The notes beneath the pieces were generated by a model that had not been told where the DNA came from, ran no database searches, and worked only from the letters and a program-made list of their open reading frames with translations. Source: Eutreptiella sp. 'Long Island Sound 2002' (Eukaryota > Euglenozoa > Euglenophyceae > Eutreptiales > Eutreptiaceae). Taken from it: a DNA stretch of 64,000 nucleotides. The position numbers and the translations under genes are program-made. The stretch covers positions 39,556,680 to 39,620,679 of the forward strand of contig OZ038385.1 in assembly GCA_964036045.1 (NCBI GenBank), written 5' to 3'. Below are positions 40,236 to 59,326 of the stretch, piece after piece (the first letter of the stretch is position 1; the number at the start of each line of letters is the position of its first letter).

Positions 40236-40544
40236 GCCGCAGCAAACTAGGGTATTTTCACTACCTACCTTGCTACGAAAAGCGCTATGCAGTAGAAGTG
40301 TCCTCATTTAGGACTTACTTTTTAATTGGTCTCATATTGAAGCGATGTGCCGAAGAGTGCTAAGTGTACTTAACTAGGACCTTTGTTTGCCTGCCCCCCC
40401 GCGTGGTGTAGGTGTTGATGTGGAAACATTCAACAATGTAATGTGGGAGATGAGTGTCCTCCTCACCCTCCTCATCGCGATCAAGTTCCTCACCTTCCTC
40501 TTCAGCCACCTCCAACTCTCTTAGCATATTCCTTTATCTAGGGC

Positions 40545-41180
40545 GGTAACAGGGTCAAATTTGGGGTAACAGGTCATTTTTTTCAAGTTGGGTTATATGG
40601 GGGTTTTTTGAGGTGCCTGACCTTGGTAACATAGTGTCACCCTCTCATTCAACACATGTGACAGGAAGAATTGCAAAGTTTGCCTTTTTGTGCTTGTTGT
40701 TACCGCAAATGTGTTACCTGCCTGTCGTGTGTTCTGCTACAAGCCTTGAGTTTCGCGGTAACAGGTATACGGGGTAACACCATAGCGGTTACACCAGCGG
40801 TAACAACAACCAAATGGGCAGAGGTGCAATAATAATTGAAAATAAAATTCCCTCAAGAAAACGCGACCTTCACGACCCTGTCAGTTTGATCTTAACACCC
40901 TAGCACTCCACAATGAATTTTTTTGTCTTGATTTGACGTGCCTATTTCTGGCAAACCTAAAATTGTGCTCAATAGAGCTGCAGAGGCATCTCTCCCTCTG
41001 GGTAACAATTTTCCTGGGTAACAGGTCAGCGGTTACACCTGCGGTAACACTACACATGTGCCCAATAGATCTGCAGAGGTATCTCTCACTCTGGGTAACA
41101 TTTTTCCTGGGTAACAGGTCAGCGGTTACACATGCGGTAACACTACACATGCCAATCATGTCCCATTAGGGCCCTGTTTT
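40545..41180. repeat. GTAAC palindrome array 1
   Basis: Repeated 'gggtaacaggtcagcggtta' type units, where GTTAC and GTAAC pair to form small hairpins. Two units near 41020 and 41120 are almost identical over 80 bases. It is the leftmost of the element 1 arrays, upstream of gene A. Confidence 0.85.
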
Positions 41181-41188
41181 TCCTCATT

Positions 41189-43364
41189 ATGCCCCTTCCA
41201 CCGGTTCCCAAGAAGTTTCACAAGGAGCTGACTGCCGGATCGACGTTGTACAGTGTCCGCTAGGGTGATGTTGCCCGTGCCGGGGCTCCTGTGGTCCTTC
41301 AGGTATCCCCTTTGCACCATTGCTTGGTGTGCCCTGTTTTCAACGGGTTGGGTAACACGTACCTGTTACCGGTTACACACGTGGTAACACCCCCCATTTT
41401 TACTGCACTTACTTTCCTTGCAGTTGAAGGCCAAGAAACAAGACCAAATAAACTTTGTTTGCGGCTGGGTTTCCAAGGGCAGCCATTCGGCCCTGACCAT
41501 GAAGACGGCGTTGGCCTACGACGTTGATGAGGGGGAATGTCTGGACATCCAGACCCTCCACGGGCCAGTGACTTTTCAGGCAAAGGAGTGTGGGAACACC
41601 TGGGGATTTTACAAAGAGGGGCAAGAGAAGGGCAAGGGCAAGGAGGTGCAGGCAACAGGCAGTGGCAGTCATTCAGCAGCAGCCAGCAAAGCCCCCACCA
41701 AATCAGCCTTGAAGCCCCCAAAACAGACCCGAACACTCACCCCAGCTTCAGTTGCAGCCAAGGCAGTCCGGCAGAGGTCCCAAATGGATGTTGACAAGGA
41801 GGTGGACAGTGATGATGATGATGATGACCAGGGACCAGGTGAAAATCCTGACGAGGAGGTGGTGGTCCAGGAGGAAGGAACCCCTGAGGAGGACGAACCA
41901 GTACCACAAACCAAGGGGAAAACAAAAAAGGCGAAAGGGAAGACGGCACATCCCAGTTTTATGTTTACCGGGCCGGCTTCTGGTGGGGCAAAGTCCATCT
42001 CTGCCCGCCCCACAAGGGCAGAAAAAACTCTTACTTCAACAACCTACCTACAACACCTTGAACGGGCGAAGTCCCATGTCAGGGAAGAGTTGGGGTCCAG
42101 CCTCAAACAGGTTGCAACCCACTACCAGCAGTGTCTGGGGGTGACAGGTGTGGCCATTGTGGCTGAAGATGGGACCCCCCTCAACGCGGACGAAGACCCC
42201 AGAGCCACAAGTGCAAGAAGAAGAGAAAGCTTTGGATGGGCATTGACTGGAAGGTGTGTGGTTCGTGTTACCCTGGTAACGGGTCAACGGTTACACACGT
42301 GGTAACAGCACATTGGTATGTTTAACTGCCATCTCACTGTTCCCCACTGTGTTCCCATGTAGGTTGGGAATCGCCATCCCTGTCATGGTGAACCGAATTG
42401 GGGCTCGAGGGGCACACACCGGAGCTTCCCCGACGTGCCTGGATCGGCTGAAGCACAAGTGGCGGGACGAGATGGGGACCGAGGGGTTGCTCAATGATGA
42501 TGAAGCGCGAACTGAAGCATGTATGTTGTCTTTTCCTGCTGGGTAACGTAAATCGCGGGTAACAGGGCAAGGGTTACATGGGTGGTAACACTGTGTGTCA
42601 GGTTTTTGTGTCCGGGTAACACTTTTCCCGGGTAACAGGTCATGGGTTACATGGGTGGTAACACTGTGTGTCAGGTTTTTGTTTCCGGGTAACACTTTTC
42701 CCGGGTAACAGGTCATGGGTTACATGGGTGGTAACACTGTGTGTCAAGTTTTTGCTCCCGGGTAACACCGGGTAACACCCATTTTATGTCCCTGGTAACA
42801 TGCTTTGCACTCTTTGTCACAGTGAATCTGCTGCTGGTGGAGCTCAGCTGCGACGGGTGCTCTGCCCTCAAGGACGTGGAGGATGATGATGCCGAAGCCC
42901 CGAAGAGGCAGCCGGAGAGGCTGGGGGAGGGCCCCACAGCAGCGCAGCTCAAGGGAGGCCCCGAGAAAGCCCACCAAACTGAAAGTGCATACTCAGGTAT
43001 GGTGTTGCAATCTTGGGGTGTTGAACTAACTGACCTACTTACATACAAATGTAATTGTCTGTAATGATATTCTCTGTCTGCAGGTTTGTCCCACCTGGAG
43101 AAACTCCGTGCAGGCCTGCAGAGTGGTCCCAGTATCCCCGGGTCACTGCAGCTGAGGACCCAGGACCTGGCGGAACTCAGCCAGGAAGACCTGGATGCCA
43201 GGATTGTTCAAACCTGGCGCCACATTGGGGTCATGCTGCATCTGAGGTCCACCCACAAGAGCTCACCCCCACTGGAACTGCCTGGCCAATGGCGTCCATG
43301 TCTGGTTGGGACCCTCCAGGAACAGCAGGAGAGGCTGCAGAGGTACAAGCGGAAGTACTACAAG
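41189..43364 (+). CDS. Gene A of element 1, exons 1-5
   Basis: Exons 41189-41302, 41424-42253, 42363-42520, 42823-42996 and 43084-43364. All have GT donors and AG acceptors and consistent phases (0, 2, 1, 1, 0). With exons 6-7 at 55894-56765 the total is 2070 nt, exactly 690 codons. The product has a small N-terminal globular part (QINFVCGWVSKGSHSALTMK), an acidic Asp/Glu-rich linker around 41800-41910, a second folded part in exons 3-5 and a basic end. No known family recognised. Exon 1 has an in-frame TAG at 41261-41263 (codon 25) in an otherwise open frame, so this copy is either broken or read through. Introns 1-3 carry the GTAAC palindromes; intron 4 does not. Intron 5 is where element 2 has inserted. 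Confidence 0.75.
42541..42802. repeat. GTAAC palindrome array in gene A intron 3
   Basis: Three near-identical units of about 65 bases built on 'gggttacatgggtggtaaca', wholly inside the intron. Intron 2 (42254-42362) holds one further unit and intron 1 (41303-41423) one more. Confidence 0.9.
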
Positions 43365-43582
43365 GTCAGGAATATGCACCCGGGTGATGAGTTTGGCATG
43401 GGATGCAGCGTTCTAGGGCGTGGTGCGGAACCCCCCCAATTTTGGGTGTTGTTAATATGGTTGGAACCCGGAATTTCACATGTTACATGGGTGCACTATG
43501 ATGCAACAATGTGCCTTCCATGTTTCGTTTGCTCGATATTGCCCGTTTTGCACTTTTTGCGATTTGATCTTTGTGTGCTCTA

Positions 43583-43732
43583 ACTAGTTATCGCGGGGTT
43601 AGAACGGGGTTAGAGCACTAGTTATCGCGTGGGTTATCGCGCGATAACCTAGTTATCGCGGGGGTTATCGCGGGGGTTATCGCGCGATAACCTAGTTATC
43701 GCGGGGGTTATCGCGTGGGTTATCGCGCTTCA
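43583..43732. repeat. GTTATCGCG palindrome array, element 2 (copy 1)
   Basis: About eight 'gttatcgcg' words in both orientations, including the perfect palindrome gttatcgcgcgataac twice. It lies between the left end and the oxygenase start. Confidence 0.95.
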
Positions 43733-43785
43733 TTTTATGTTTCCCCTTTTCGCTTTAGCTCTCAAAGCTTTCATATTCTTTGATA

Positions 43786-45768
43786 ATGGCCCTTGCTGCT
43801 GCCCACGCTTGGTGCGAGCACCATCAAAAGCTCCTTGGGGTCCGTCGCCTTGGCGGTCCTGAGGGGTTTACGATGGGTGATGCCAATGTGAGGCGCCCTG
43901 TGGCGACCCGCTTTGAACATGGTGTGGACTTTGGACTCCTTGTCCATAAGTCCCTCTTCATGGCGGACAAGCGAGACCCCCTGGTTCTCAGCAACTACAT
44001 CTTCGAGTTGCTAGAGGTAAATCCAGGGGTTGCTGGATTTTTGATCCAGCTTCATCCCGACGATGTGGACGCCGTGGTGGAGTCCGTCACCGCCCATGCC
44101 GAGAAGGGTGCGGGGACGAAGACGACCCTCTATGTGGGTCAGGAGGAGGAGGAGGAGGAAGTGGAGGAGGAGGAGGAGGATGCGGGGGGGGTGGGGGCTG
44201 GGGGGAGGAAGGAGAAGCCCCACAACCCCCTCATGATGAGTATCCAGAAGGTAAGGATCCGACCGGGCAAGGGGAAGGGGAAGTCGGATGGTTGGTTCCC
44301 CCAACCCCTCACCCACAACACCCGCCGGGTCTGCACTGACGACCCCGAAAACAAGCTCCCCATGCACTCCCTTTGCCCCACAAGGGAGTGGGAGCGTGAG
44401 TGGTATGGGGTCACCACTCCCAACATTGTTTCGGGGCAGGGGGTGATTCTTTTTCCATTTGGGGCAACACCCCCCCTTATTGGGGAGGCGGAGGAGGTGG
44501 TTGCCGCCGAGCCCTTGGGGGCCTTTAATAGGGACCCCAATGACCTTGTGCTCACGGTGGGGGGAAAGCTGGTGGTCAACCACCTCCTGCAGCACGATTT
44601 TTTGAGTGATGTGCAGCTGCAAAGTCTTTTGGATGATTTGGATAGGGTGCCTCTCTCAGAGAAGGCACCCATTTTCAATGAGAACCCCCCCATTGTCGGC
44701 AGGCCCCAAGATTCTGGGACCCGCCGTACATTGTATGGCAACTATGGGGGTGCCAACCACCACAGGCACAACCCCCACAAGCTCCATGATCTGCCAGTCC
44801 TCAAAAGGGTGGCAGATCGTGTGCTTGAGACGGCGAAGAAGACTGTGGTGGGGGGGGTTGGATGGAGCTGCACCATCCTTGACATGGCCGAAATTTCGAG
44901 CTATGACCACACCCCCCAGCACCTCCATCGCGACGCCCCCCCCTACACCATTCCTGAAGGCACATTGATTGTCAATTGCCTTATTATGCTAACCCATAAT
45001 CATGAGGAGGAGGATGGGTCACATTTTCTTTTTGTGCCCTCCAGCAGTTCGGGGTTCCCTGACCCTTGGGTGGAGAGGGCTGTGCCATTCAAGAGGGGCA
45101 CTGCCTTTTTTTTTAATGCCCTTGATGTCCACAGGGGGTCGGGGATTCCCAAGGCCTCCCCCATGGGGGTAAGGGACCCCCGCCTCATGGCATTTTTTGC
45201 CATTGAGCTTACCCAGGGGGGGAATCTTCGATTCCCCAACCTGCACGTGACGCAGTCCATTAAGAGGCCCCAGCTGGGGGCACCTGCTGGCCGGGTGGCC
45301 AGGACAGTCTAGTGTGATGGGGCGGTTAGGTGTAGGGGGAAGGTGGTAGCCAATTGCTACGGATGCAATCGGCTGATTTTGTGCACCGCCCACAAAGATG
45401 GCCTTTGTGTGCCATGCCAGGAGGGGGAGGAGGTGGAGGGGGGGGAGGAGGAGGAGGTGGTGGTGGACCCCAATGGGGTCAGCATTGAGCAATCTGCTCA
45501 GTGCTTGCTCCCGGTGGGAACAACCACCGGGCATTTTTTGTTGTCGGGGTGGGGGATTGGGAGGGAGTTGATTGCCCCCCTCACTAATGAGGAGGCGGGG
45601 GCGGTCGCAGGCCACCCCGATCAGTGCCCCTTGGCCAAGGTGTGCCATGGGGAGGCACTGCCCTGGCCCACCTTGCAAGGGCATGTTGGGATGAAGGTGC
45701 CGGCGGGCACCATTTTGGTGGTGAGGAGGGGGTTGTATGGGGGAGTGGCAAGGGTGGCCCCTGAGGTG
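43786..45768 (+). CDS. Gene B of element 2, first part: 2-oxoglutarate/Fe(II) oxygenase, then stop, then zinc-binding segment
   Basis: From the ATG at 43786 to a TAG at 45310-45312 is a 508-residue protein. Its C-terminal half is a 2-oxoglutarate/Fe(II)-dependent oxygenase fold. The iron triad reads HLHRDAPP (His381, Asp383) and ALDVHRGSG (His449), with Arg463 or Arg466 as the likely 2-oxoglutarate ligand, so it looks catalytically intact. An acidic Glu-run sits near residues 120-135. After the TAG the same frame stays open to 45768 and encodes a Cys/His cluster (CYGCNRLILCTAHKDGLCVPC). Element 3 then interrupts it; the frame resumes at 51113. Oxygenases of this type in transposons include TET/JBP-like enzymes that oxidise DNA bases. 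That role here is an inference from the company it keeps. Confidence 0.8.
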
Positions 45769-45959
45769 TGTACCTGCGGCTCACTGGTGGCTAAGTGGAA
45801 ATGTGAAGTTGGGGCTCATTTGGGGCTCAGTTGTGCATTGCGATGTCTTTGTGCTTGTTTGTTGTGCGTTTTGCATGCTAGGTAATGTGCATTTAATGTT
45901 TTTAGAAGTTTTAGATACTCACTTGGTCAAGGTTCAAGGGGGGGGGTACTTTTTTTGGC

Positions 45960-46110
45960 GACGGCTCAGTTGACTGAGCGCCCGACTGAGCCGTCACTGA
46001 GCCGTCACTGAGCCGGCTCACTGAGCGCTCAGTGAGCGCTCAGTGAGCGCTCACTGAGCGCGCCAAATGGCTCAGTGAGCGCTCAGTGAGCGCTCAGTGA
46101 GAGCTAATTG
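45960..46110. repeat. CTCAGTGAGCG palindrome array, element 3 (left)
   Basis: Tandem alternation of gctcagtgagc and its complement, nearly all one long palindrome. Subterminal position. Confidence 0.95.
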
Positions 46111-46214
46111 GGGGCTCACTCAGAGGGTTCCCCCCCCTTTCCGCCTCTCCTCCGCCCCCCTATCCGCCTACCCATCCATTCCTTCTCGCTCCCATAGGTC
46201 CTCTCTTTCACACC

Positions 46215-47568
46215 ATGTCTATTGTTGTCCCAGGCCTGGAACCGGCAGCTTCAAAGGCTCTCGCGTCTTTCCTTAGTCGCCCCCGGGTACCTACCGCTTT
46301 CACAGAGGCAGCGTACCCGGGGGTGCCTTCGACGGACCTAGAGCCCTTGAAGCTGTGGGCCCAGCAGCTCCCTGCCCCTTCCCCAGAAGTGGTCCACATC
46401 AACGTGACCGATGTGACCCTTCTTGGAAAGAGCTGGATGCACCGGTGCAACCAAATGTTGCGCCAGGTGCATCCAGCTCTTCGTGCCGTACGCTTCCGCT
46501 TTCCTGTGGCTGCTGTCCAAGATTTGGTGCAGCAGTCCTCAGGAAAGCTGATCGGTACCCCCCACGAGTTCGGGACACGGGTTCATGACACCAAAGATCT
46601 CCAACACGGTTGGACTTCAGATCTTGGTGTGAGCCACGTCGCTCCCAAGAAGGGACTCCTTGAGCCCCTGCCTTTCGGGGTCGGGGTGGTGTCAGGGGAA
46701 TGGTGGGAAAGCCTTTCGGCTTGTCCCATCATTCCTGAGTGGTGCCATGTGGTGCCCGACTACACCACCCCAGCCTTGTACAGGACCAAGGAGCCCGTGT
46801 TCCTCCGCGGTGCCGCCTCCCCTCCCCCCTACATTTCCCTGGCTGCCCCGGTGTTCTCACATGAACTCCCGGCTCATGACCTTGAGTCGGATGAGTCCTT
46901 GTGCGACTTGGGGCTCCGGGTGGTTAGGGGGGCGGTAGAGGCCAAGGAGTGCGAGAACTGGTACCACATTCTCGTCGACTCCATGCCGTGACCGTGACCA
47001 GTTTCGCCAGGAGCGGGATGCTGCCCGTCTGGCAGCGGAAGCAGCCACCCGTCTCAAGGAGGAGCTGGACACGGTCAAGCGGCAGCGGGACGACCTGCAG
47101 GCGAAGCTCGTGGACGCTGATCGCCAAGGGGCTGCCACTGAGGCACGCCTGGAGGTGCTGCAGCGGTCCAAGGGCTGGAAGAACATTGAATCTGGGCCGG
47201 GGGCTGCATCCCCCTCCCAGTCAGGGGTTCCGGTTGCACCCCCCGCCACCTACAGCGCGCAGTCCATGCAATTCCTGGCATCGGGACTGTTGGAGTACGC
47301 CCACTTGGCCACGCGGCTGATGGCCGACGCCAAGTCGTCGTGCCAGCAGCTGCAGACCATTGCTGGGCTGGCTCGAACAACCACGATGCCGGACCTGAGC
47401 GTGGACAGCCTGCCGAAGGTTGAGGCGGAAGTGTCAACCCGCCTGCAGAACGCCGACCGCCGGTACCGGTCGGATGTGGTGGCGGCTGCTCAGCAGCCTG
47501 GCTGGGAGCCAGAGCAGTCCGCGTTCGGCAGTCCGGGTTCTCTCCCTGGAACTGCGGCTCTGTGGTAG
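46215..47568 (+). CDS. Gene C of element 3: coiled-coil protein, frameshifted
   Basis: The ATG at 46215 opens a 258-residue frame (MSIVVPGLEPAASKALASFL) that stops at 46991. From about 46975 the next frame continues as a strong coiled coil (AARLAAEAATRLKEELDTVK, DDLQAKLVDADRQG) and ends with TAG at 47566-47568. A +1 shift near 46970-46980 would join them, so this copy is frameshifted or has a short unrecognised intron. The N-terminal half has no family I recognise. Its place beside a transposase parallels the coiled-coil proteins of elements 1 and 2, which suggests a shared accessory role. Confidence 0.65.
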
Positions 47569-47814
47569 CCGCTGGACCCCCACTACGTGGTTCGTATATA
47601 TGTATGGTATATATTGTTGTTGAGCACTTCATGACATTTCTTTTGGGGGGGCTGGGGCCACAGATTGCAGCGTGCTGTGCACTTGCTGCACCACTTTCTG
47701 CCCTGCTGTGTGCCTTTGTTTCACAGGTAAACGTGCCGTGATTGTGGCCGTGTACCGATTGCAACTGTATGTTATTCCAAAAATATTGACGGAGCTGAAA
47801 ATTTTCCAAGGCGG

Positions 47815-48135
47815 CCAGGGGCCACCACTTTCAGCTCTGATGTGCTGCTTCTTTTCACACAGGCCAGTGGCCACAACTTTCAGCCCTGGTATGGGCACGA
47901 ACAAGTGAGGGCTGTGCTGCCTTTTTTCACACAGGCCAGTGGCCACAACTTTCAGCCCTGTTGTGGGCCTGTGTTCAAGACCAGGGCCGACTCTGGCCCC
48001 TGTGGTATGTTAATTGCGACCCTTTTTTTTTTCTTTCAATTTTGCATGCAGGCCAGAGGCCACGTCTTTCAGCCCTGTTACGGGCACGAACCAGAGCAGG
48101 GGTGTGCTGCCTTTGTTCACACAGGCCACACAGAC
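47815..48135. repeat. Tandem repeat of about 75-90 bases downstream of gene C
   Basis: Four diverged copies of 'cacaggccagtggccacaac' with 'tttcagccctg.tatgggcacgaac', likely in the 3' untranslated region of gene C. The core 'ggccagtggcc' is itself palindromic. Confidence 0.75.
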
Positions 48136-48215
48136 CGCAAACAGTATTTGAAAACAGTATTGGCCTCTTGTGTGGTGCCTGTGTACTGCCTGTCTTTTGG
48201 TGTGCAGTGACTGAG

Positions 48216-48405
48216 AGGTAACTGAGAGCTCAGTGAGAGCTAACTGAGCGCTCACTGAGCTCACTGAGCGCTCACTGAGCCATTTGGCGCGCTCAGTGAG
48301 CGCTCACTGAGCGCTCAGTGAGCGCTCACTGAGCGCGCCAAATGGCTCAGTGAGCGCTCAGTGAGCGCTCAGTGAGCGCGCCAAACGGCTCAGTGGGCTC
48401 TCAGT
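48216..48405. repeat. CTCAGTGAGCG palindrome array, element 3 (middle)
   Basis: Same palindrome family as 45960-46110, lying between gene C and the transposase. It is followed by a G-rich stretch (48515-48760) with five G-runs. Confidence 0.95.
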
Positions 48406-48952
48406 CGGGTGGATGGAATTGTTGGCCGCCACAAACAGGTGGTTGTGGGCAGGGGGTGCAAGGGGGATGTGCCACCTACCACCAGGGACTGAAAACAGGT
48501 GTGTGCCAGGGCTGGGGGGGGGGGGGGGGGGCTGCAGCGCATATTACGGCAGCAACCGGGCGGAGGGGGGCGTCAAAGGGGGCAATGCGAGACGCTGCGG
48601 GGGGTGGGGGGGGGGGGGGGGAGGATGGGACAAACTCCCTGGCGGCATCCTCGGGGGGGGGTACGACGGGACAAACACGCTGGCGGCATCCCCGGGGGGG
48701 AGAGGGGGGCAAACACCATGGCGGCATCCCCCCGGGGGGGGGGGGGGGTGGGACAAACACCCTGGTGCAACCCCACTACCCCAACCCGACGAAGAGTGTG
48801 AATCCTGCAGGGGCAAGGGGGGGGAAGGCTAGGGACAACAATCAAGGGGAAACAGGTGGGGGGGATAGCAAAGAGATGTGAAAAGAGGTAAGTGTGACGC
48901 AAGCACGGGGACTGCATGTGGCAATACACCTCTACCACAGGTCCTACACAAA

Positions 48953-50701
48953 ATGCCACCCAAGCGGCCCTTTTCCTTGTTGGGAACACAGCGCCAGCGC
49001 GCAACCCGGATTGAGCATCTGGAGGCCGCGGTGGCGGCCTCCCTATGTGAGGAATATCGGGCCGAGCTGCAACCCGATGGTAGCATACTGCTAGTCCCTG
49101 AGGACTATAGCCGGCCCACGGACACCACCCCCGACATCAAGTCGGAGGCCTTGCGCGTGCTGTGGCGGATGCGTAGTTCACAGATGTCGCGCCGCGACAT
49201 GGCCTACCTGCTGCCCGACCTGGACAGCACCGTTAGCTGGGCCGACGTGGCCCCGTGGCTGAAGCACCTCAGCCAACCTGCTAGCCGGCGGGTTTGTATC
49301 CTTGAGGGGGAGTATGAGATGCAAGGGGCGTACTGCAATATTGCTGAGCGGCTAGCCCTGCTCTATGAAGCGCGTGCCGTACGCACACCGGAAGCCTTGC
49401 AACCGGGCGCGCAGCGCAACACCTGGGTGACCATCGGCGTTGACGGCACCAACCGGTGGAATCGGGCCTACGTGCACTGTGCAGTGGCTGCACCGGGTTG
49501 TGGGCCCACACAGCTTGCTAGCTGGTGGCTGTTTGAGGGTAGCGAGATGTGGGCCACGGTGTACGGCATGCAATCGGAGTGTGACTTCGATACGCAGCTC
49601 CGCGCTGCTACGGCCCTGCAACTGCCGCATGCGGATGGGGTGGCACGCAGCCCCCTATTCTTCGTCCGGGCCGATGGCAAGGCCCACATCATGCTGGCCG
49701 GCGGGGACGGCTTCACCAAGAAGAGCCCCGGGGCCATGGTGTGCCACTGCTGCGGGGCAAACAGTGAAACGGTTTTGCGCAAGTTCGGGGGACAAGAGGT
49801 TGCCCTGGAAGGAATCAAGGGACATGTACGGCTGACCGGGGTGTTTCGTGACATCCCGGCGGACCGCCGCATTCCTGACTTCGGTGCGCATGGAGTCATG
49901 CGTGTTGCCATTGCGGGGGTCAATGGAATTGTGCGGGGGCTGGTGACCCATGGCGGGGTATCGAGGAAGAGTGCGGCCACCATGGTGCAGGGGGTTATAA
50001 ACGGGGCACGGAAAGTGGCCCGCACGGTGCGGCCTGGAAAGTGGGGGGCGGACAAGGCAAATGCCAAAGGACAGGTGCGCATGGAGTTGGGGGCTGCTGC
50101 GCACTTTGTCAAGGCCCGGCTGTGGGGCCCACTGTTGCAGCTGGTTGCACCGGTGATGGGGAACCATCAAGTGGGGGGCAGGCCATGGGTTGATGTGTGC
50201 ACGGAGTGGTGGGAGGCGTTTGCGGCCATGGCCGAGGTGGCCTGGAAGGCCGACTTTCTGAGTGGTGCAGAGCAACGTGCCTTGCTGCAACGGCAACGGA
50301 CCATGGGGGCAAGGCACCTTGACCTGGGATGGGGGAAGACGTTGTGGACGCACATGTGGGTTGACCACATGTATGCGTATGTTGCACGGTGGGGGACCAT
50401 TGCAAGGTTTAGTTGCTTTGCATTGGAGGGCAGCCACGTGCGACTGAAACGGTTGCTTAGGAATAGTGGGGGGGTTAGCTTGCTGAACGATAGGTCCGGC
50501 TTGCAGTGTGTGGTGGATAACCACACGCTAGATGACCACCTCCGCAAGGAAGGTTGGGAGGTGGAGAGTAGGGCCGTGACCAAGCAAAGGGGGTTCCAAC
50601 GACGGTGCATGACTTGGTCACGTGCCCGGCGGGAGAGGAAGGGGAGGGAGAACATGGTGAGGAGGATTGTGGAACGTGCATTGCGACAAAGGACCAAGTA
50701 A
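48953..50701 (+). CDS. DDE transposase of element 3
   Basis: 582 residues from an ATG in a good context (MPPKRPFSLLGTQRQRATRI) to a TAA. It has an RNase-H-like layout: first Asp in TIGVDGTNRW (Asp164), second in LAGGDGFTKK (Asp252) followed by a zinc knuckle (VCHCCG, Cys264-Cys267), and Glu492 in CFALEGSHVRLKRLL. Spacings are D-88-D and D-240-E. A Cys pair just after the second Asp and a long helical insertion before the Glu occur in hAT, CACTA, Transib/RAG1 and KDZ-type transposases. The superfamily is not certain. The frame is intact, so the protein may be active. The C-terminus is strongly basic (RARRERKGRE), as expected for DNA binding. Confidence 0.8.
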   Translation: MPPKRPFSLLGTQRQRATRIEHLEAAVAASLCEEYRAELQPDGSILLVPEDYSRPTDTTPDIKSEALRVLWRMRSSQMSRRDMAYLLPDLDSTVSWADVAPWLKHLSQPASRRVCILEGEYEMQGAYCNIAERLALLYEARAVRTPEALQPGAQRNTWVTIGVDGTNRWNRAYVHCAVAAPGCGPTQLASWWLFEGSEMWATVYGMQSECDFDTQLRAATALQLPHADGVARSPLFFVRADGKAHIMLAGGDGFTKKSPGAMVCHCCGANSETVLRKFGGQEVALEGIKGHVRLTGVFRDIPADRRIPDFGAHGVMRVAIAGVNGIVRGLVTHGGVSRKSAATMVQGVINGARKVARTVRPGKWGADKANAKGQVRMELGAAAHFVKARLWGPLLQLVAPVMGNHQVGGRPWVDVCTEWWEAFAAMAEVAWKADFLSGAEQRALLQRQRTMGARHLDLGWGKTLWTHMWVDHMYAYVARWGTIARFSCFALEGSHVRLKRLLRNSGGVSLLNDRSGLQCVVDNHTLDDHLRKEGWEVESRAVTKQRGFQRRCMTWSRARRERKGRENMVRRIVERALRQRTK

Positions 50702-50740
50702 GTGCTTATGATGGATGATTTGTGCCCGTGCATGTTAAGT

Positions 50741-50895
50741 GAGCCCTGAGTGAGCCCCCAATTAGCTCTCACTGAGCGCTCACTGAGCGCTCACTGAGCC
50801 ATTTGGCGCGCTCACTGAGCGCTCAGTGAGCCCTCACTGAGCGCTCAGTGAGCCGGCTCAGTCACGGCTCAGTGACGGCTCAGTCGGGATGCTCA
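50741..50895. repeat. CTCAGTGAGCG palindrome array, element 3 (right)
   Basis: Mirror of the left subterminal array, between the transposase stop and the right inverted repeat. Confidence 0.95.
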
Positions 50896-51112
50896 GTCAA
50901 CTGAGCCGTCGAAAAAAAGAAACCCCCCCGGTGAAATCCTCTTGGCCTAGGGATTGGGATCCCTTTGGGGACATTCCAAAACCCCAACCCACCCCCGAAA
51001 GCCACAACTTTTCACATTAAACCCCTTGAAAAACACCACTTAGCCCCAAATGAGCCGTTTTAGCCCCAAATGAGCCCCAACTTCACATTTCCAAGTGAGC
51101 CGCAGGTACATG

Positions 51113-53337
51113 GAGGGGGTGGCCCAGGTGGTGGAGTGGCGGCAGGTGGGGGAGTATGCGGCCGTCACGGACTTCGTGTGGCTGCGGAGGCTGGGCCTGG
51201 TGCTGGACGACGCCAAGAAGGAGGGCCAAGGCATGTGTCCATGTCACCAGGTGTGAAAACTTCCCACAACACCCTGCTCTAACCCCTGCTCTAACTAGTT
51301 ATCGCGCTAGGTTATCGCGTTCTAACTAGGTGCTCTAACTAGTTATCGCGCTAGGTTATCGCGTTCTAACTAGTTATCGCGGAGTTATCGCGGGGGGCTA
51401 TCGCGGGGGTTATCGCGCGATAACCTAGTTATCGCGGGGGTTATCGCGCGGGTTATCGCGTGTTTTTTTTTTGTTTCTTTTGTTTTTTTCAGGCTACCAT
51501 CTTGCAGCTGCCCCGCATCTTCGTCAAGGACGACGCCCAGGCAGCCGAGGCAGCAGGCGGAGCGGCAGAAGCAGCGGGGGCACGGCCCGCCAAGCCGGTG
51601 GCGGCCCGGTTGGAGCTGGAGGGGGAGAAGAGGCTGCCGGAGGGGGCGTCGTGGCGGTTTGGGGAGCCTGGGGATGAGGCCTGCAGGATGGCGGGGACGG
51701 GATGGTACCGGCAGGTCACCATCACAGAGAAGGAGGGGGGGGTGGAGAGGAAGACCAACCTCACCCTCCCCTCCTATGTGTGGGTTGGGGGGGAAACGGC
51801 CAAGTGGCCGCAAGCCGCAGAGGGGGAAACGGTTGCGGCTTTTTTGTGTTTGTTTGGGATGAGCGACCCCCCCCAAAGGAAATCTTATTTCCTTTTGAGG
51901 GTGTGTTTTTTGTGGGAGGGGGAGTATACGGGGAGGGAAGTGTGGCAGAAGCTGCACAGGGGGGGGGACATCCACCAGGTTGGTGGGTATGACCCCCCCC
52001 CTTCTGTGGTGGACGCCACTGCCGATTGGGTTCGGCAGTATGCACCCAAGGGGGGAAGGCCGGGAAAAGGCCAGACGAAGCGGGGACCAGACGTGGTGGT
52101 GGTTGAGCCGGATGCCCCCCCCCCCCTTAGGGGTAAGGGCCAAACCCCCGCCCCCAAGCCCTCCCCCAAGCCATCGAAGGTGGCAAAGGTGGCGGCAGCC
52201 CAGCCCCCCCATGAGGCCCTGGACGTGGAGGCCTTGGGGGCCAGTGTGGCCACCCACGTGACGGACGCTTGCCAGGTTTTGGTGGAGCAGGCGGCTGCCA
52301 CGGGGGTCGAGGCCGCACTGGCCAAGGGTCGGTCGGCCGACCACAAGTCGGCCTTGGCGAAGGCCGAAAAGGCCCAGGGCAACACCCAGCGTGCCCTGGA
52401 CCAGGCCCTCAACCTGGCCGCCAAGAGGGGGGAGGAGGTGGAGGCGATGAGGGAGGCCCTGAGGGAGGCCCAGGAGGGGAGGCGGAAGGCGGAGGTGGAG
52501 GCGGCCCAGCTTAGGGTGGAGGTGGAGGGGCAGCGGAGGAGGGGGGATGACCTTGGGCAGCGCTTGGGGGTGGCTGAGGCGCAGGTGCGCAGCCTCACCT
52601 CCACCCTCTGTGCCTCCTTCGGGGCGCAGCAGGCCCAGCAGGGGCTGGCGCCGCAAGGGTTGCAGAGTCAGGGTAGCGGGAGTAGGAGTGGGAGCCAATG
52701 ACTAGTGGATTTGCTCAAGGGGTTGCCCAAGGGCATTTTTCGTGGGGAGGAGCGATATGGGGCCCAAGTGGACATGTGCCACTTTGGCCTTGTGGGAAGT
52801 GGAAACCCCAACCCCTCTAATTTTAGGGCGACCCACATGGCCGCTGCTACCGTCAGGCCTGCCCTCACCCCCTTGGTTGCAGACCTCAATGGGTATTGCA
52901 CCTCCAATGCTCCACCATGGTTCACATGGTGTAGCATCCAAATTGTTCGCCCCCAAGGGACGGACACCATGGGCCTCCACTCCCATTTGCGGGATGGGGC
53001 GCCCATGGCGCTTATTGTGTGTGTGGGGTCTTTCACGGGGGGTGAGTTTTGGGTGGAGAGTGGTGGCCTGCTGAATCCCTCCTTGAGGGAAAAAAAGCGG
53101 CACACCCGTGTGTGCAAGGGTAGGGCGGTGGAGGGTTGGGCATGCACCGCCACCCCCCAAGCCCCGGTGTTGTTCAACACCAGGGCACTACACGCTCCAT
53201 TGCCATGGGAGGGCGAGCGATGGAGCGTGATTTTTTATAGTGCGGGGGGGGTTCTGCACTGCACGCCTGTGTGGCGGCAGCAGCTGCTGTCCATGGGTTT
53301 TAGGGTGCCCAATGCTTCCTCTAACCCCTCCAGCTAG
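51113..53337 (+). CDS. Gene B of element 2, second part: coiled coil, UGA-CUA-G, then a second 2-oxoglutarate oxygenase
   Basis: The frame cut at 45768 resumes at 51113 (VEGVAQVVEWRQVGEYAAVT), reaches a donor (CACCAG|GTGTGA, exon end 51250), skips an intron filled with GTTATCGCG palindromes and continues at 51493 in phase 0. It encodes a globular part (WRFGEPGDEACRMAGTGWYR), a Lys/Pro linker and a long coiled coil (52290-52600). A TGA at 52699-52701 is followed at once by CTAG, and the same frame runs on to a TAG at 53337. This last part is a second oxygenase-like domain: GLHSHLRDG (His codons 52978 and 52984), FTGGEFWVE, and ALHAPLPWEGERW (distal His 53191, Arg 53218). The usual HxD is HxH here. 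Whether it is made by readthrough, as a separate ORF or not at all is open. Confidence 0.78.
51291..51460. repeat. GTTATCGCG palindrome array in the gene B intron
   Basis: Around nine copies in both orientations occupy most of the 242-base intron 51251-51492, leaving a T-rich tract and the acceptor CAG. Confidence 0.95.
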
Positions 53338-53581
53338 TGTTATTTGTGATTCGATTATTGTTCACTATTTCTATTACTGTACTCTGTGGACTCTGAGGAG
53401 GGGCAACTAGCCCGGAACATGTCCATTTGACTGATTTGAATTTGTGATTGTGGCGCCATGTACCCCGTGCCTGCACATTGTTGACATCTCCAAGGTTTCC
53501 TGGGTGCAAAATCAACGTTTGTGAAGGTTTTAGGGTGCCCAACGCTTGCTCTAACACCACCAGTTAGTGCGCACTAACCCC

Positions 53582-53745
53582 TGCTCTAACTAGTTATCGC
53601 GGGGGTTATCGCGCTCTAACTGGGTGCTCTAACTAGTTATCGCGGGGGGTTATCGCGCTCTAACTAGTTATCGCGGGGGGTTATCGCGGGGGTTATCGCG
53701 CGATAACCTAGTTATCGCGGGGGTTATCGCGTGGGCTATCGCGTG
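53582..53745. repeat. GTTATCGCG palindrome array, element 2 (copy 3)
   Basis: Lies between the second oxygenase domain and the transposase. Same words and order (ctaactagttatcgcggggg) as copies 1 and 2. Confidence 0.95.
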
Positions 53746-53907
53746 TGTTTTTTGGGCCCTTGCTTCAAAACCCTCCCTCATTTCGTGTCCAGGTCCTCTT
53801 ATTCTTCATGGACAGTGCTGTCAATGAGGCCCTGCGGGCTCTCAACATAGCTAACCTCCGGCGGTACACCGATCTGCAGTGCCCCAAGGCCCGGCGGCGG
53901 CGTTTGA

Positions 53908-55467
53908 AGGCGGTTTCAGCGGCTGGTGCGAGTTCTATTGGGTGACCCAGACGTCGTGTGTGGCACCAACACCAAAGGCGAAGTTTGTTTAAGTGGTGGG
54001 GCGTGCAATGCCCTGTCTGGCCCACTTGGCGGCCATCTTGCATTAACAGCTCAGGAGCATGAGGCCCTGAGCATGCTACGCATGGCATGCAGCATGCATC
54101 TCTCCCAACGGGCCCTTTTGCGAATGCCCCGCCGTTGCACACAACGGGACCTAAGGACCGTTCGGCAACGGATCATGCCCTACTTTCCCCAAACCACCAT
54201 TGTAAAGTCTACCACAGGCCGCAATAGGGCAGTTGCCCATGTGCCTTTGCAATCAATTGTGCAAAATGCAATATCTATGGCCCGAGTTATTGGGAAACCC
54301 CCCCCTAGTGGCGTTGCCATTATTGTTATTTCAGTTGATGCGACTTCCTTGTGGAAGGCATCCTCCACCCGTGCGGATGTATGGGTGAATGTATGGGGGG
54401 GGGCAAAATATGCTTCGAAGGTGAAGCTATGGGCCTCATGGTTTTGCATGGATGGTGGGGATGAACAGGCTTTTTTGAGAAGCCTGGACATCTCCGCCAA
54501 CCTCAACCAAGAGGTGAGGGATGTGGAAGAGGACGTTGTCCTCTTTCAAAACCAATTTTTGACTTGCACTGTCATTTTGACAGGGGATGGGAAGGGGATG
54601 CAAGCAATGGGGGGGGCTGGGTCTAAGTGTTGGTTGTGCAAAGACCCCAATGGGATTGTTGAGCAAAGGGGGGTGGAGTCCACCTCAAGATGGGGGGCAT
54701 TCTTGAGAAGTGTGACCCCTGATAGGCGGCCGGGGGACTACCAACATGCAGCATGCCGCATCCTAAACGGCATTGCAAAGCGCATTGAGACCACCCTTCA
54801 GGCCCTCCCCCCTGGTACCCCTGGTAAGGCCCAAGCTCTTGCAGCTTTGCAGGCCTTCAAACAAGCCCTCAAGGATGAGACCTCAGGCATCCCTCTGAGG
54901 GAACGCCTCCCTTCGGCCTCGAGGGCCACAGAAAAAGATTTCGATCTAACCAGCACCAAAGTTTTCCTAACCTCCCCCCCCTTCCAAAGGCAATTTGTGG
55001 ATCGCCTCAAAGAGCATGTCCCCACAGTGAGGACCCCTGGGGGACCTATGTTATGGGTTGTTGTGCATGTCATGGTGAAATGCATTGAGGGTTTGTATGA
55101 GCTTTGGAGGGTGAGGGAGTTGTACACTCTAACCCAAGTGGAACGCCACCGTGCGTTGACCACAAAATTTTCAAAAGCGTGGGGAGACTCAGGTTGGCCC
55201 CCCACCAGGTGGATCCATTGGTGCTTGGCACATTCCACCTTTTTTGCCGAGAAATGGAGGAACATTTTTCAGTTTTTCTCCATCCCAACGGAGTATCGGC
55301 ATGGGCCTTACAAGAGGAGGCTCAAAAATTGTTTTAAGGGTTGGTCTTTGGTGAGCCCAAGTATGTCCCTCCGCCACATGCACCATTGCATGTCCATGAA
55401 CGCCCTGGAGCAAGGGCTTTTGGGACTGGAGGCAGCCAAGGCCTCAGACATTGATGACTTTGTATGA
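53908..55467 (+). CDS. DDE transposase of element 2
   Basis: About 515 residues, open from 53908 to a TGA. First Asp in VISVDATSLW (Asp138 counted from 53926), second in LTGDGKGM (Asp221), zinc knuckle SKCWLCKD (Cys235/Cys238), Glu456 in IPTEYRHGPYKRRLKN. Spacings D-83-D and D-235-E are almost those of the element 3 transposase, and the Glu motifs align (E-x-x-H...KR.L.N), so the two are one superfamily. The start is unclear. An ATG at 53808 opens another frame (MDSAVNEALRALNIANLRRY, basic) that stops at 53945, and a one-base shift near 53905 would join the two. The N-terminus of this copy is probably frameshifted, or a short exon is involved. Confidence 0.8.
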   Translation, partial: RRFQRLVRVLLGDPDVVCGTNTKGEVCLSGGACNALSGPLGGHLALTAQEHEALSMLRMACSMHLSQRALLRMPRRCTQRDLRTVRQRIMPYFPQTTIVKSTTGRNRAVAHVPLQSIVQNAISMARVIGKPPPSGVAIIVISVDATSLWKASSTRADVWVNVWGGAKYASKVKLWASWFCMDGGDEQAFLRSLDISANLNQEVRDVEEDVVLFQNQFLTCTVILTGDGKGMQAMGGAGSKCWLCKDPNGIVEQRGVESTSRWGAFLRSVTPDRRPGDYQHAACRILNGIAKRIETTLQALPPGTPGKAQALAALQAFKQALKDETSGIPLRERLPSASRATEKDFDLTSTKVFLTSPPFQRQFVDRLKEHVPTVRTPGGPMLWVVVHVMVKCIEGLYELWRVRELYTLTQVERHRALTTKFSKAWGDSGWPPTRWIHWCLAHSTFFAEKWRNIFQFFSIPTEYRHGPYKRRLKNCFKGWSLVSPSMSLRHMHHCMSMNALEQGLLGLEAAKASDIDDFV

Positions 55468-55536
55468 AAAACGACCACAGATGCTTTGTGCCAAGTCTTT
55501 TGTGTTGTTTGTCCTAGGGAGGGAGGGAGGAGGGGT

Positions 55537-55615
55537 GCGCGATAACTACCCGCGATAACTGCGCGATAACTGAGTTATCGCGCGATAACTAGCGCGATAA
55601 CTAGTTAGAGCAAGG
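55537..55615. repeat. GTTATCGCG palindrome array, element 2 (right)
   Basis: Cgcgataact words, followed by 'gttctaact' repeats up to the right inverted repeat. Reverse-complement counterpart of the array at the left end. Confidence 0.9.
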
Positions 55616-55893
55616 TGCTCTAACTGCGTTCTAACTCTGTTCTAACTGTGCTCTAACTCTTTGACCCCCCCCCCAAAAACCACCCCCATGATGCGGGTTA
55701 TGTGGGGAAAGAAAGGGGATGGGGAGTTTTGGAGGGTGCTGAATCCATTTTTTTAGGTGGTTTGCCCCAAAATTAAGGGTAGGTGGGTGTTCTAGAAATT
55801 GCGTTCTAACTAGGGGTTCCGCACCACGCCCTAGAACGCTGCATCCCACAGTGCAACCAGCAGCAGTGACAGCCAGGAGAGTGAGGGGCCAAG

Positions 55894-56765
55894 ATGCGGA
55901 GGAAGCAGCGGAACAAGCACAAGAGGGCGCGGAGGCGGGCCCGTGAGGAGGAGGCGCGGCAGCGGCTGGAGGCAGAGCGGAACGCGCTTCTGGCGAGGGT
56001 GCAGGCAATGGAAGTGGAGGCCAGACCACCAAGCCTTGGTATGTTTTTTGTGCTCTGTTGCTGCTGGGTAACAAAAATTCCCAACGGTTACACACGCGGT
56101 AACACTTTCCAAAGCCTGGGTAACAACAATTCTGGGTAACACCCCAACGGTTACACACGCGGTAACACTTTCGAAAGCCTGGGTAACAAAAAGTCTGGGT
56201 AACACTCCAACGGTTACACACGCGGTAACACTTTCGAAAGCCTGGGTAACAAAAATTCTGGGTAACACCCCATCGGTCACACACGCGGTAACACTTTCGA
56301 AAGCCCGGGTAGCAAAAATTCTGGGTAACGCCCCAAGGGTTACAAAGGTGGTAACACGTACTTTGCAGAACCACTGTGTGTCTCTCTATGTTTTCAGGTG
56401 TCTCCTTGGCAAAGGCCTACTCACCCCTGACGGCGAGGGAGTTGAGCAGCGGGAAGCACGCCCAACGTCAGGCCGAGGGCACCCCAGAAGGCCTCCCAGA
56501 AGCAAAGGCTGCCCATGTTCCAGAAGCCCCAGGCCCAGACCCTGACCCCACTGCCCTCAAGGTTGACCCGGCTGCCCCTGCCCCTGCCCCTGCCCCTGCC
56601 CCTGCCCCTGCCCCTGCAGCAGAGCAGGCTCCCATTGCCCCAGAGGCAACCCAACGGGCCCCATCTACTCAAGCCAGTGAGGTGCCGTTGTGGTCGCAGG
56701 AGGCAGAGGATGAGGAGCAGCCAGCAGAACCGGCAGCGGGGGCCGACGATGAGACGCCGATGTGA
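55894..56765 (+). CDS. Gene A of element 1, exons 6-7
   Basis: Exon 6 (55894-56038) starts directly after an AG and continues exon 5 in phase 0. It encodes a very basic head (MRRKQRNKHKRARRRAREEE) running into a coiled coil. Exon 7 (56398-56765) joins in phase 1 and ends with TGA. It is a flexible tail with a Pro-Ala repeat, from seven or so 'gcccct' units at 56573-56615, and an acidic end. The intron between them (56039-56397) is filled with GTAAC palindromes. The basic-coil start could bind DNA or the element ends, which is inference. An alternative reading continues exon 5 straight through the insertion site, but that frame stops in exon 7. Confidence 0.7.
56066..56356. repeat. GTAAC palindrome array in gene A intron 6
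   Basis: Five tandem units of about 60 bases ('cggttacacacgcggtaaca', 'ctttcgaaagcctgggtaac'), each with two nested palindromes. They fill the intron. Confidence 0.95.
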
Positions 56766-56825
56766 TGATGTGCAAGGGTGTGTTTCTTTATTTGTACCCT
56801 TGGTTTTGTGAATGGGGCAGTGTGG

Positions 56826-57192
56826 TGACACGTTACCGGGGTAACACCCCAGGGGTTACATGGGCGGTAACACACAGGTATTCACCTCTGGGGTATGGCA
56901 ACACGTTACCCGGGTAACACCCCAACGGTTACATGCGTGGTAACATCGTTCAGCAATGATCCTCTGTTGTTCTCAAGCCCAAAAGTGAGTGGTGGAGACT
57001 CTGGATCGTGGACGTGATTGCGAGGAAGGCATGGACTTCACGGACTGATGCATCGGCGACGTCGGATGGGGTCTTTTTTTTTTATCAGGCCTGTTGTGGC
57101 CTCTATGCTTGTACAATGGTTGGATTGTCAGTGGTGAATGTTACCACCCTTGTATCCCAGTTGCCAGTTACCCAGTTACCAGGGGTGTTACC
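56826..57192. repeat. GTAAC palindromes between gene A and the piggyBac transposase
   Basis: Two clear units (56830-56880 and 56905-56946) and a third, weaker one at 57140-57192. Confidence 0.85.
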
Positions 57193-57317
57193 TCGACGTC
57201 CTCATTCTTTCCTTCTAGCTTTGCCTCAGGGTTCAGGGGTAATTTGTGAACGATGTGCACGAGTGCAAGGGGGGGGGGTGTTTTCCTGTCCACCCATTTT
57301 CACTTTTAACAGCCACC

Positions 57318-58678
57318 ATGCCCATCCGACCCAGCCGGCGTCCATTGCGGAGAGCAATGGTGTTCGAACGAAGGGGACTACCCCCCAAGCATGTGAGAGG
57401 GGCCCTATCAGCAGCTACCCTTGGGGGACATCCTAAAAAGAAGTATGCCACCATTACCGAGGCCATGGATGACATGTTCCACCCAATCCTGCGCTGCCTG
57501 AGTGAGGCTTTGGCCAAAAATGGAGCCAGCGAATTGATACCCAAGCTCACCAACTACATCCTATTCAGGGTTATGCTGGGGATGTGGCGACCAAGACGAG
57601 TCAATGATGTATGGCATCCCACAGCTTTGTGTGCACACAAAGGCTTGGCCTCCCTATTAACCAGGGAGGAGTATTATAAAATACACCGCCTGTCCAATTG
57701 TGGTACTGCAGAGCTCCTTGAGGCTGTTAATGCCCATTGGTCCAGCCTGTGGGTATGGGGGTGGGCTGCCGCAGGGGATGAATCCATTGTCCCCCACAAG
57801 GGGAAAAGGGCTGGACCCATGCGGCATTTCATCCCCAGAAAACCGCATAGCACAGGCATTAAATTGTATGTCCTGGGTGACTCGGTGCACCCTTTTATAA
57901 CTGATATTTTTTTGTATGCAGGCAAAAGGGTCAGGGTCTTCCGGGATCACCCCCAGGTGGCTGGACCTCGGACTGCCCGGGAGATGGTACACCGATGGGC
58001 TGACCTACTCCCTACTCGCACTGCAATTGTGTGCGACTCATACTTTGGAAGCCACCTAGTGGCAAACCAAATGGCACAGCGTCAGCACCCCTTCTTGTTC
58101 CTATGCAAAAGGGATCAGGAAGGGGTTTCCCTGGCTGGGGATAGTATGCGACCCTCCATTGCAGCAGAAACGTATGTCAAAGGAGGCAAGTATAGCCTCC
58201 AGGTAGCAAACCACCACGTGTGGTTCCATTTCTGTCAAACTGTGTGTTCGACAATGAGTGGGTGCGCCACAGAGGTGGTTATGAGCTCCCATCTGTTGTG
58301 GCTGCATACAGGCAGCTAGCCAACGGTGTTGACAGTGCCAATCAAATGGCACTAGAACACCGTGAGACAGGCAGATTCAAGTGTTGGACCCGTGCCTTGA
58401 AGGCTTTCTTGTTTAGGTACGCGATTGTAAATACCTTTACAGTCTGCCGACTCCAAGGTTTGATACCCAAAAAGAAATCCCTTTGGGACTTCCAATGGGA
58501 TATTTTGGAAAAGTTTGTCTCCCCTGGGCACGCTGTGCACACGCCGGTGCTTGTAGATACCCGAGGCACTTGCAAAGTATGCAAGGGGCGCACTTGGTTC
58601 AAGTGTGCTCATTGCGATGTGCATTTGCACTCCTACAGTGGTTGTTTCCAGAAGTGGCATTCAGAACTGAAAGTTTGA
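57318..58678 (+). mobile_element. piggyBac-type transposase, one frameshift
   Basis: DDE_Tnp_1_7 (piggyBac) family. The start is the ATG at 57318 (MPIRPSRRPLRRAMVFERRG). Catalytic Asp154 lies in GDESIVPHKG, Asp240 in IVCDSYFGS, and the third Asp in GVDSANQM (codon 58331-58333). The C-terminal Cys-rich finger is complete (CKVCKGRTWFKC, then CDVHLHSYSGC). The frame changes once near 58220-58235, between ANHHVW and FLSNCVF, so one base has been lost or gained and this copy cannot make full-length protein without correction. The length and domain order are otherwise normal. GTAAC arrays flank it on both sides, as the transposases of elements 2 and 3 are flanked by theirs, so it may be the transposase of element 1. 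Confidence 0.88.
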
Positions 58679-58769
58679 ACTCAGAAGAAACAGCAGTCCT
58701 ACGGCGCAGTGATACTTCTTGCAGGGCAGGGAGGGAAGGGACTATGTGTGCATGACGTTGTGCCCAGCC

Positions 58770-59036
58770 ACCATGGGGTAACTAAAACAAAGTGTGATGA
58801 AGGGGTTACATGAAAGGTAACACAGGGGGTAACTAATAGGGACAAAGTGGGATTGGAAGGGGGCATGGTTACCCGGGTAACACCCCAAGGGTTACAGCGG
58901 TGGTAACAAAAACAATTAACAACCAGAGCGCTCGGGTAACACATACATGTTACCGGTAACATAGGAAGTTTCTCGGGTAACACATTGGTAACACCGTCGG
59001 TAACATGTGTTACCCAGGTAACAAGCATGTTACCCC
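58770..59036. repeat. GTAAC palindrome array, element 1 (right)
   Basis: Dense 'gggtaacac' / 'ggttaca' words, the last array before the outer inverted 18-mer. Confidence 0.9.
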
Positions 59037-59092
59037 GTTCGAAAAATAAAAAAGGTCAAATATCTTCACCTGTTTTCTGGGGCAGAAATGGG

Positions 59093-59326
59093 TTACCCAG
59101 ACCACATGGATCCCTGAGTACTAACCCTAGATAAGGGAATATCATCATACATGGGGTCGTTCTCATCTTCTCCAGATTCTTGAGAAGCATCCAACTCATC
59201 ATCATCATAAACATCACAAACATCACAAACCTTGGGTTCCTTTCTGTTCTGCTGCGCCAAATTCCGTTGTCGTGTCGCCGTTATCGAAATACGCTTTCTG
59301 AAGTTTTCATGGCCACAGACAACCAT
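59093..59326 (-). CDS. Hypothetical acidic fragment at the right edge of element 1
   Basis: A 77-residue minus-strand frame with a Cys pair (VCDVCDVYDDDELDASQ) and an acidic stretch ending DDIPLSRVST, which overlaps the inverted 18-mer. On the left side of element 1 (about 40400-40515, minus strand) another acidic reading exists (LEVAEEEGEELDRDEE). They might be two halves of one host gene split by the element. The evidence is composition only. Confidence 0.3.
   Translation of the reverse strand: MVVCGHENFRKRISITATRQRNLAQQNRKEPKVCDVCDVYDDDELDASQESGEDENDPMYDDIPLSRVSTQGSMWSG

Follow-up and report, generated by a model that had tools for sequence, protein, structure and literature searches.

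Three nested transposons and their words

The window analysed here is a stretch of 64,000 nucleotides (64 kilobases, kb) on contig OZ038385.1 of Eutreptiella sp. 'Long Island Sound 2002', and lies in a genome of 2.28 gigabases (Gb). Three transposons, E1, E2 and E3, are nested inside one another in this window, and each carries its own short word in its non-coding DNA (Table 1). The original prediction, made from the letters of the window, had described the nesting, a palindrome private to each layer, and an order of arrays that follows the nesting; all of this was borne out. In a recount on both strands of the whole window, 38 of 38 occurrences of the E2 word TTATCGCG were located in the gaps of E2, and 25 of 25 occurrences of the E3 word CTCASTGAG in those of E3. 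The E1 word GGTAAC was found 83 times. Of these occurrences, 71 fall within the 2,699 non-coding bases of E1, one in the non-coding DNA of E3, and 11 beyond all three elements, a region of 45,389 bases; none falls within the coding sequence of E1-E3, which totals 12,191 bases. The exons were our own reading of open frames and GT-AG borders, made without transcripts and accurate within 1-2 bases; 41 bases at a supposed intron 5 of E1 gene A, which contain no GGTAAC, were counted as non-coding.

The words were then compared with shuffled windows. TTATCGCG was observed 38 times versus 0.56 expected, CTCASTGAG 25 times versus 0.32, and the pair GTTAC-N7-GTAAC 16 times, always in E1 gaps, versus 0.01. 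The observed numbers were reached in 0 of 100 shuffles in each case. The partition by layer and the shuffled controls rule out chance or base composition as the source of the words. An Rfam search gave no matches.

The sites also have a fixed geometry. In E1, the two half-sites are separated by seven bases (16 pairs) or four bases (5 pairs); spacings of 3, 5, 6, 8, 9 and 10 bases were not found. All 16 pairs read GTTACA..GGTAAC, a single orientation of a slightly asymmetric site. Most E2 units are the half-site TTATCGCG, with the full palindrome in five; in the first three E2 arrays, 28 of 32 half-sites share one orientation. The two end arrays of E3 are mutually inverted (143 nucleotides, 97% complementary). 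No intron was seen in the window E3.

The E1 transposase scored 44.7 bits against DDE_Tnp_1_7 (cut-off 22.4), and a weak C-terminal zinc-finger match stayed under the cut-off (E 0.081). The right-end form GGAATAT, followed by a variable flank, is common to the window copy (L042) and L043-L045. piggyBac elements use TTAA as their target site; the flanks of these four copies read ATAT, and TTAA was not found at their ends. The original prediction had named a short interrupted intron 5 in gene A. This proved to be exon, since the frame is open across the empty E2 site in the E1 copy L056; the same open frame rules out a location of E2 in an intron of gene A. E2 has TGGG..CCCA ends. A copy of E2 (L060) likewise reads through the empty E3 site. 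The E3 ends are TGTACCTGCGG, and the 3' end is common to copies with different flanks. The target duplications are TG/TG in the window and CT/CT in L032, and other copies end in AGGTACA. The 5' 1.2 kb of the window E3 (45771-46981) is not homologous to the E3-type copies L036 and L037, the array excepted. Its array is nearly identical to the 3' array, in inverted orientation, and therefore the 5' end looks rebuilt.

Table 1. Features of the three nested elements (positions in the window; TIR, terminal inverted repeat; bp, base pairs; aa, amino acids; 2OG, 2-oxoglutarate).
Feature	Position	Strand	Remarks
E1, piggyBac-like transposon	40527..59145	+	ends ATATTCCTTTATCTAGGG / CCCTAGATAAGGGAATAT; interrupted by E2; copies L042-L045 and L054-L056; DDE_Tnp_1_7 match
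E1 array, 5' end	40545..41145	+	14 GGTAAC
E1 gene A, multi-exon accessory protein	41190..56765	+	exons around the arrays, interrupted by E2; from open frames and intron borders
E1 array, gene A intron 1	41343..41390	+	3 GGTAAC
E1 array, gene A intron 2	42268..42310	+	3 GGTAAC
E1 array, gene A intron 3	42540..42805	+	12 GGTAAC; number varies between copies
E1 array, gene A intron 6	56066..56360	+	13 GGTAAC
E1 array, gap between gene A and transposase	56830..57190	+	10 GGTAAC
E1 piggyBac-like transposase	57318..58678	+	frame-broken in the window copy; DDE_Tnp_1_7 E 1.5e-11; best 125 matches scored
E1 array, 3' end	58775..59036	+	16 GGTAAC
E2 transposon	43399..55848	+	36-bp TIR TGGGATGCAGCGTTCTAGGG...; 2-bp target duplication CA; in exon of E1 gene A; interrupted by E3
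E2 array, 5' end	43588..43727	+	11 TTATCGCG
E2 accessory gene	43789..52701	+	2OG-oxygenase-like N-part, globular part, basic linker, coiled coil; interrupted by E3; in-frame stop in the window copy
E2 array, intron of oxygenase-like/coiled-coil gene	51299..51460	+	11 TTATCGCG; GT..AG borders
E2 TET/JBP-like frame	52702..53337	+	211 aa, in frame directly behind the TGA stop; label from motif resemblance only
E2 array, gap between TET-like frame and transposase	53594..53731	+	10 TTATCGCG
E2 transposase	53953..55467	+	21.6% identity to E4 transposase over 388 aa, E 5.5e-8; best 85 matches scored
E2 array, 3' end	55538..55600	-	6 TTATCGCG, 5 on the minus strand
E3 transposon	45771..51112	+	TIR TGTACCTGCGGCTCACT; TG duplication; in exon of E2 oxygenase-like/coiled-coil gene; ends within a few bases
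E3 array, 5' end	46017..46101	.	7 CTCASTGAG, mostly 11-bp steps
E3 accessory gene	46215..47568	+	N-part unlike L036/L037; C-part coiled coil
E3 array, between the two genes	48229..48376	.	11 CTCASTGAG
E3 transposase	48953..50701	+	best 75 matches scored, 32 at top score
E3 array, 3' end	50768..50852	.	7 CTCASTGAG

Copies in the genome and a fourth family

Other copies of each element were compared with those in the window. All three families are large, and the copies listed for each are much alike. The original prediction had asked whether such copies carry the same arrays in the same gaps: those of E1, E2 and E3 do, and some gaps are missing in some copies. For E1, the best 125 of 2,618 first-look candidates were scored (91-100% identity). 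The copies L054-L056 keep the arrays in the parts common with the window. The number of GGTAAC differs between them: 12 in the window, 15 in L056 and 8 in L055 for intron 3; 13, 14 and 8, respectively, for intron 6. For E3, the best 75 of 7,860 candidates were scored (92-100% identity, 32 at the top score). All 30 E3 loci compared, the window included, have the 3' array; 27 also have sites upstream of the transposase, and the three without them are L005 (where bases are masked), L007 and L019. Within the transposase frame, the E3 word was absent from all 30 loci.

For E2, the best 85 of 7,578 candidates were scored, all with at least 98% identity. In four E2 loci, one of which is the window, the 3' array was found in all four and the upstream array in three (missing in L039). 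L047, L048 and L050 have two arrays each, and L049 has one. Genome-wide word counts cover the E2 and E4 words. Across the 2.28 Gb there are 5,029 exact matches to the E2 palindrome and none to its reversed-control word; the TIR ends were found 1,055 and 1,034 times. The co-occurrence of word and element was checked on the first 50 listed sites, which form 16 clusters on contig C1 up to 28.36 megabases. Of these sites, 39 lie within ten TIR-bounded elements, all of which carry the word; and one lies beside a lone E2 end. The remaining ten belong to five clusters in which no exact end was found; each of these clusters matches E2 (86-98%), and two of their sites fall just past the fetched stretch. 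All 16 clusters are thus E2 copies. Neither outcome that would have contradicted the original prediction was seen for E2 on this stretch: no palindrome independent of E2, and no TIR-bounded copy lacking it.

Shortened E2 copies keep the arrays as well. TIR-bounded derivatives of 1.8-2.9 kb retain them, and a derivative of about 640 bp (L061, 683-1322) contains little beyond both ends and their arrays. TTATCGCG also persists in five older E2 copies, a biased sample in that the copies were picked by the palindrome. In the E2-like insert of L012 (4090-4515), a long tandem of TCTAACTAGTTAGAGC units stands beside TTATCGCG units; this is perhaps a word in transition. The lead P0041 to a second E2 family yielded one old listed copy, L046, which is without TTATCGCG but has a repeated AGTTAGTG.

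The E2 copy L049 holds an insert with a different array, consisting of the words GAATTCACGTGAATTC / TTCGTACGAA. This insert represents a fourth family, E4. GAATTCACGTGAATTC has 1,481 exact sites genome-wide, and its control word has none. The E4 ends are TGTACC, as in E3, and the best 150 of 4,498 candidates were scored, all with at least 95% identity. Upstream of the transposase there are 8 E4 words in L063 and 10 in L064; at the 3' end there are 9 and 7, respectively; within the 599-codon transposase frame of these two copies there are none. L065 contains 8 words, mostly 11 bp apart, in an apparent intron of the accessory gene. The E3 and E4 arrays advance mostly in steps of 10-11 bp. The E2 intron and gap arrays and the apparent-intron array of E4 rule out arrays limited to the element ends.

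The E4 transposase is 35, 40 and 59% identical to the E3 transposase over three stretches, and the E2, E3 and E4 transposases are related to one another; none of the three has a Pfam match at E 10. E4 is a diverged relative of E3, and E2 and E3 are members of one CACTA/Plavaka-like group. Four families of two superfamilies have their own word in introns, gaps and ends, an intron in E3 excepted, and the sister families differ in their words.

Two further arrays were seen. Beside an E4 end in L051 (682-750) lies an array of TTGGCGCGCCAA-type words (8 CGCGCCAA), another private-looking palindrome. In the window, outside E1-E3, a palindrome array CGACGCGTCG occupies 24325-25001, with 8 ACGCGTCG words at 24874-25001; it may belong to a fifth family. 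An open frame lies at 26986-27672 on the minus strand, and we take its end to resemble a hAT dimerisation region by its motif.

Accessory proteins and the UGA junction of E2

Besides a transposase, each family encodes an accessory protein. The E3-type copies L036 and L037 and the E4 family encode homologous accessory proteins; in the globular part, the proteins of L037 and of L052, an E4 copy, are 34% identical across 99 aa (E 6e-11). These proteins consist of a globular part, a basic linker and a coiled coil, in an order that the E2 accessory protein follows too. A coiled coil would suit a dimer, and a dimer would suit a palindrome. The accessory protein, which is encoded beside the CACTA/Plavaka-like transposase, is the likely reader of the words.

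The E2 accessory gene shows additional features. Its N-terminal part matched PhyH under the cut-off (E 0.0081). At 52694-52706 of the window, TGA CTA G stands between the coiled-coil protein and a frame of 211 aa. The junction was compared in ten loci, which represent seven distinct copies (L002-L004 and L047 are one copy; L038 is the window). TGA is present in 7/7 copies, followed by CTA in 5/7. Four diverged relatives (P0013, P0074, P0129 and P0170) have a sense codon at this position, and the frame reads on. UGA-CUA is a known readthrough context. The E2 junction is a candidate for stop-codon readthrough in a transposon.

We take the 211-aa frame to be TET/JBP-like from its motifs, and profile searches give no support for this label. 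No Pfam profile, TET/JBP included, matched 52702-53337 at E 10, and a profile built from 19 sequences matched no PDB chain at E 10. When the oxygenase-like parts of E2 were compared with PDB chains, the one match was weak, to REF6 (E 0.19). The frame contains LHSHLRDG (HxH), a downstream H, and ERWSVIFYS; the carboxylate of the usual HxD or HxE...H iron triad is missing there. The original prediction had also suggested that the words are marks read by the element's oxygenase, which is possible for E2 only. For this family, the notion that an oxygenase is directed to the element itself is appealing yet unproven.

Interpretation of the arrays

The closest parallel is found in Arabidopsis. According to the available text of the source, VANDAL21 has arrays of a family-specific motif in its introns, intergenic and terminal non-coding DNA, and these are bound by VANC21 (PMC5735166). 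VANC21 binds in vivo and in vitro, methylation is lost over VANDAL21, and the motifs are arrayed in one orientation; VANDAL6 carries a different motif (PMC5735166, PMC10398659, as far as their text was available). Changes in repeat number of VANDAL21 were reported by Hosaka and colleagues. The statement that no such transposon family had been described was thus too strong. Beyond the VANDAL work, no private palindromes in transposon introns were found in the open-licence PMC literature, and the string 'palindrom' does not occur in the available text of the VANDAL21 paper (PMC5735166).

E1-E4 share with VANDAL/VANC a family-specific short motif in tandem arrays across introns, gaps and ends, mainly outside coding DNA. 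They also share the largely single orientation within an array (seen in the E1 pairs and the first three E2 arrays), different motifs in related families, and an accessory protein beside the transposase. The repeat number differs between E1 copies, as in VANDAL21. Unlike VANDAL/VANC, the transposases here are piggyBac-like and CACTA/Plavaka-like rather than of the Mutator-like element (MULE) type, the words are palindromic or paired half-sites, and E2 adds oxygenase-like parts. DUF1985 and DUF287 were absent from the E2, E3-type and E4 accessory proteins (E 10) and from the main exon of E1 gene A (E 0.1). Membership in VANDAL is ruled out, given the DDE_Tnp_1_7 transposase of E1, the related transposases of E2-E4 without Pfam match, and the absence of these two domains. 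By analogy, E1-E4 might work like VANDAL/VANC without being VANDALs. Binding and demethylation have been demonstrated for VANC.

Other transposons resemble single features of these elements. E3, with TGT..ACA ends and a 2-bp target duplication, and E4, with TGT..ACA ends, are similar to PlavakaA (PMC12730594, available text). The oxygenase-like frame of E2 recalls the TET/JBP genes of fungal CMCT transposons in the same source, although the E2 frame is without profile support as TET/JBP; palindrome arrays are not reported for PlavakaA or CMCT elements in its available text. Of the D, D, E, C(2)C and H(3-4)H pattern of the PlavakaA transposase, C-x2-C and H-x4-H stretches were seen by eye in the E3 and E4 transposases, which have no Pfam match. 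E1 agrees with the piggyBac superfamily in its transposase domain, and differs in its ATAT rather than TTAA flanks and in a multi-intron accessory gene with intron arrays. The giant KDZ and EnSpm transposons of Ectocarpus are likewise DNA transposons of large size that carry accessory genes and show nested insertions; private intron palindromes are not mentioned in the text available for them (PMC12477816). New, as far as searched, are the palindromic words, their presence in superfamilies other than that of VANDAL, the co-occurrence of four such families within a single genome, and the oxygenase-like frame of E2.

The arrays are best explained as self-address sites for a DNA-binding protein of the element itself, most likely with an anti-silencing function; we give this reading a probability of roughly one half. 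The original prediction had offered binding sites for the element's own proteins as one option, and this is the best-supported reading. Each family would evolve a private, mostly dimer-type word, scattered through the DNA that is spared from coding. An element-encoded protein could then recognise members of its family along their entire length, and hardly any other DNA. The bound protein would keep silencing marks off the arrays, so that the element genes stay active, much like VANC on VANDAL21. In E2, the protein has a 2OG-oxygenase-like N-terminal part and a possible UGA readthrough into a second oxygenase-like domain, and the address could thereby recruit an oxygenase.

Binding sites of the transposase itself, multiplied inward and serving excision and synapsis, would account for the arrays at both ends of E1, E2 and E3, for their inversion between the E3 ends, and for their retention in short TIR-bounded derivatives and L061. 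The related E3 and E4 transposases do have different words, and the subterminal TnpA sites of En/Spm provide a parallel. We consider this explanation unlikely, since introns and gaps far from the ends are also filled, where end synapsis needs no sites. Transcription or splicing elements, such as promoter or intron enhancers of the element genes, fit the arrays upstream of genes in E2, E3 and E4 and within introns, and also the uniform orientation of the 16 E1 pairs. The arrays at the 3' ends, downstream of all genes, do not fit, and host factors could hardly explain family-specific words that differ even in sister families; this role seems quite unlikely. Functionless minisatellites, in which a palindrome that arose by chance in non-coding DNA was multiplied by tandem slippage, are the least probable alternative and appear very unlikely. 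Local tandem steps of 11, 43, 63 and 73 bp and variable copy numbers would be expected from slippage; it would not by itself place the same word in three (E3), four (E2) or seven (E1) separate, otherwise largely unrelated gaps, none of them coding, nor repeat this pattern in four families.

Several observations weigh against self-address sites read by an accessory protein. Intron 4 of E1 gene A (87 bp), correctly named as an exception in the original prediction, contains no GGTAAC and is the sole intron found without an array. Convincing sequence homology was not found between the accessory proteins of E2 and E3, and those of E2, E3 and E4 reach no Pfam cut-off. Their best Pfam match is a phage-lysis family (E 0.0008, under the cut-off), and of the families listed only KfrA_N, which matches the E3-type coiled coil with E 0.32, is DNA-binding. 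The E3 accessory protein in the window is without the globular part, yet the element has the same word; therefore the globular part, if it reads the word at all, would do so in trans, and the window E3 may be served in this way. The old E2 relative L046 (frame about 65% identical) lacks the E2 word. Tandem spacing can come from slippage alone, and so the 11-bp step is weak evidence. For the oxygenase branch, the codon after the E2 junction stop is CUC, not CUA, in two of the seven copies (L048 and L050), and no oxygenase was found in the main exon of E1 gene A or in E3.

A broader form of the self-address reading is tentative, and we regard it as doubtful: at least four families of two superfamilies might have acquired, by convergence, a whole-body address read by a coiled-coil protein, with the E2 oxygenase joined by readthrough for a self-targeted DNA oxidation that would oppose methylation. 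Sequence-specific anti-silencing of the VANC type has so far been an Arabidopsis MULE story in the available text of the papers compared. With E3 and E4 as sister families, the code between protein and word becomes directly testable. If the self-address reading is true, the palindrome and its protein would be a ready-made pair for directing chromatin changes to chosen DNA, and transposons would have solved repeatedly the problem of 'spare me, silence the rest' by means of a private code in their non-coding DNA.

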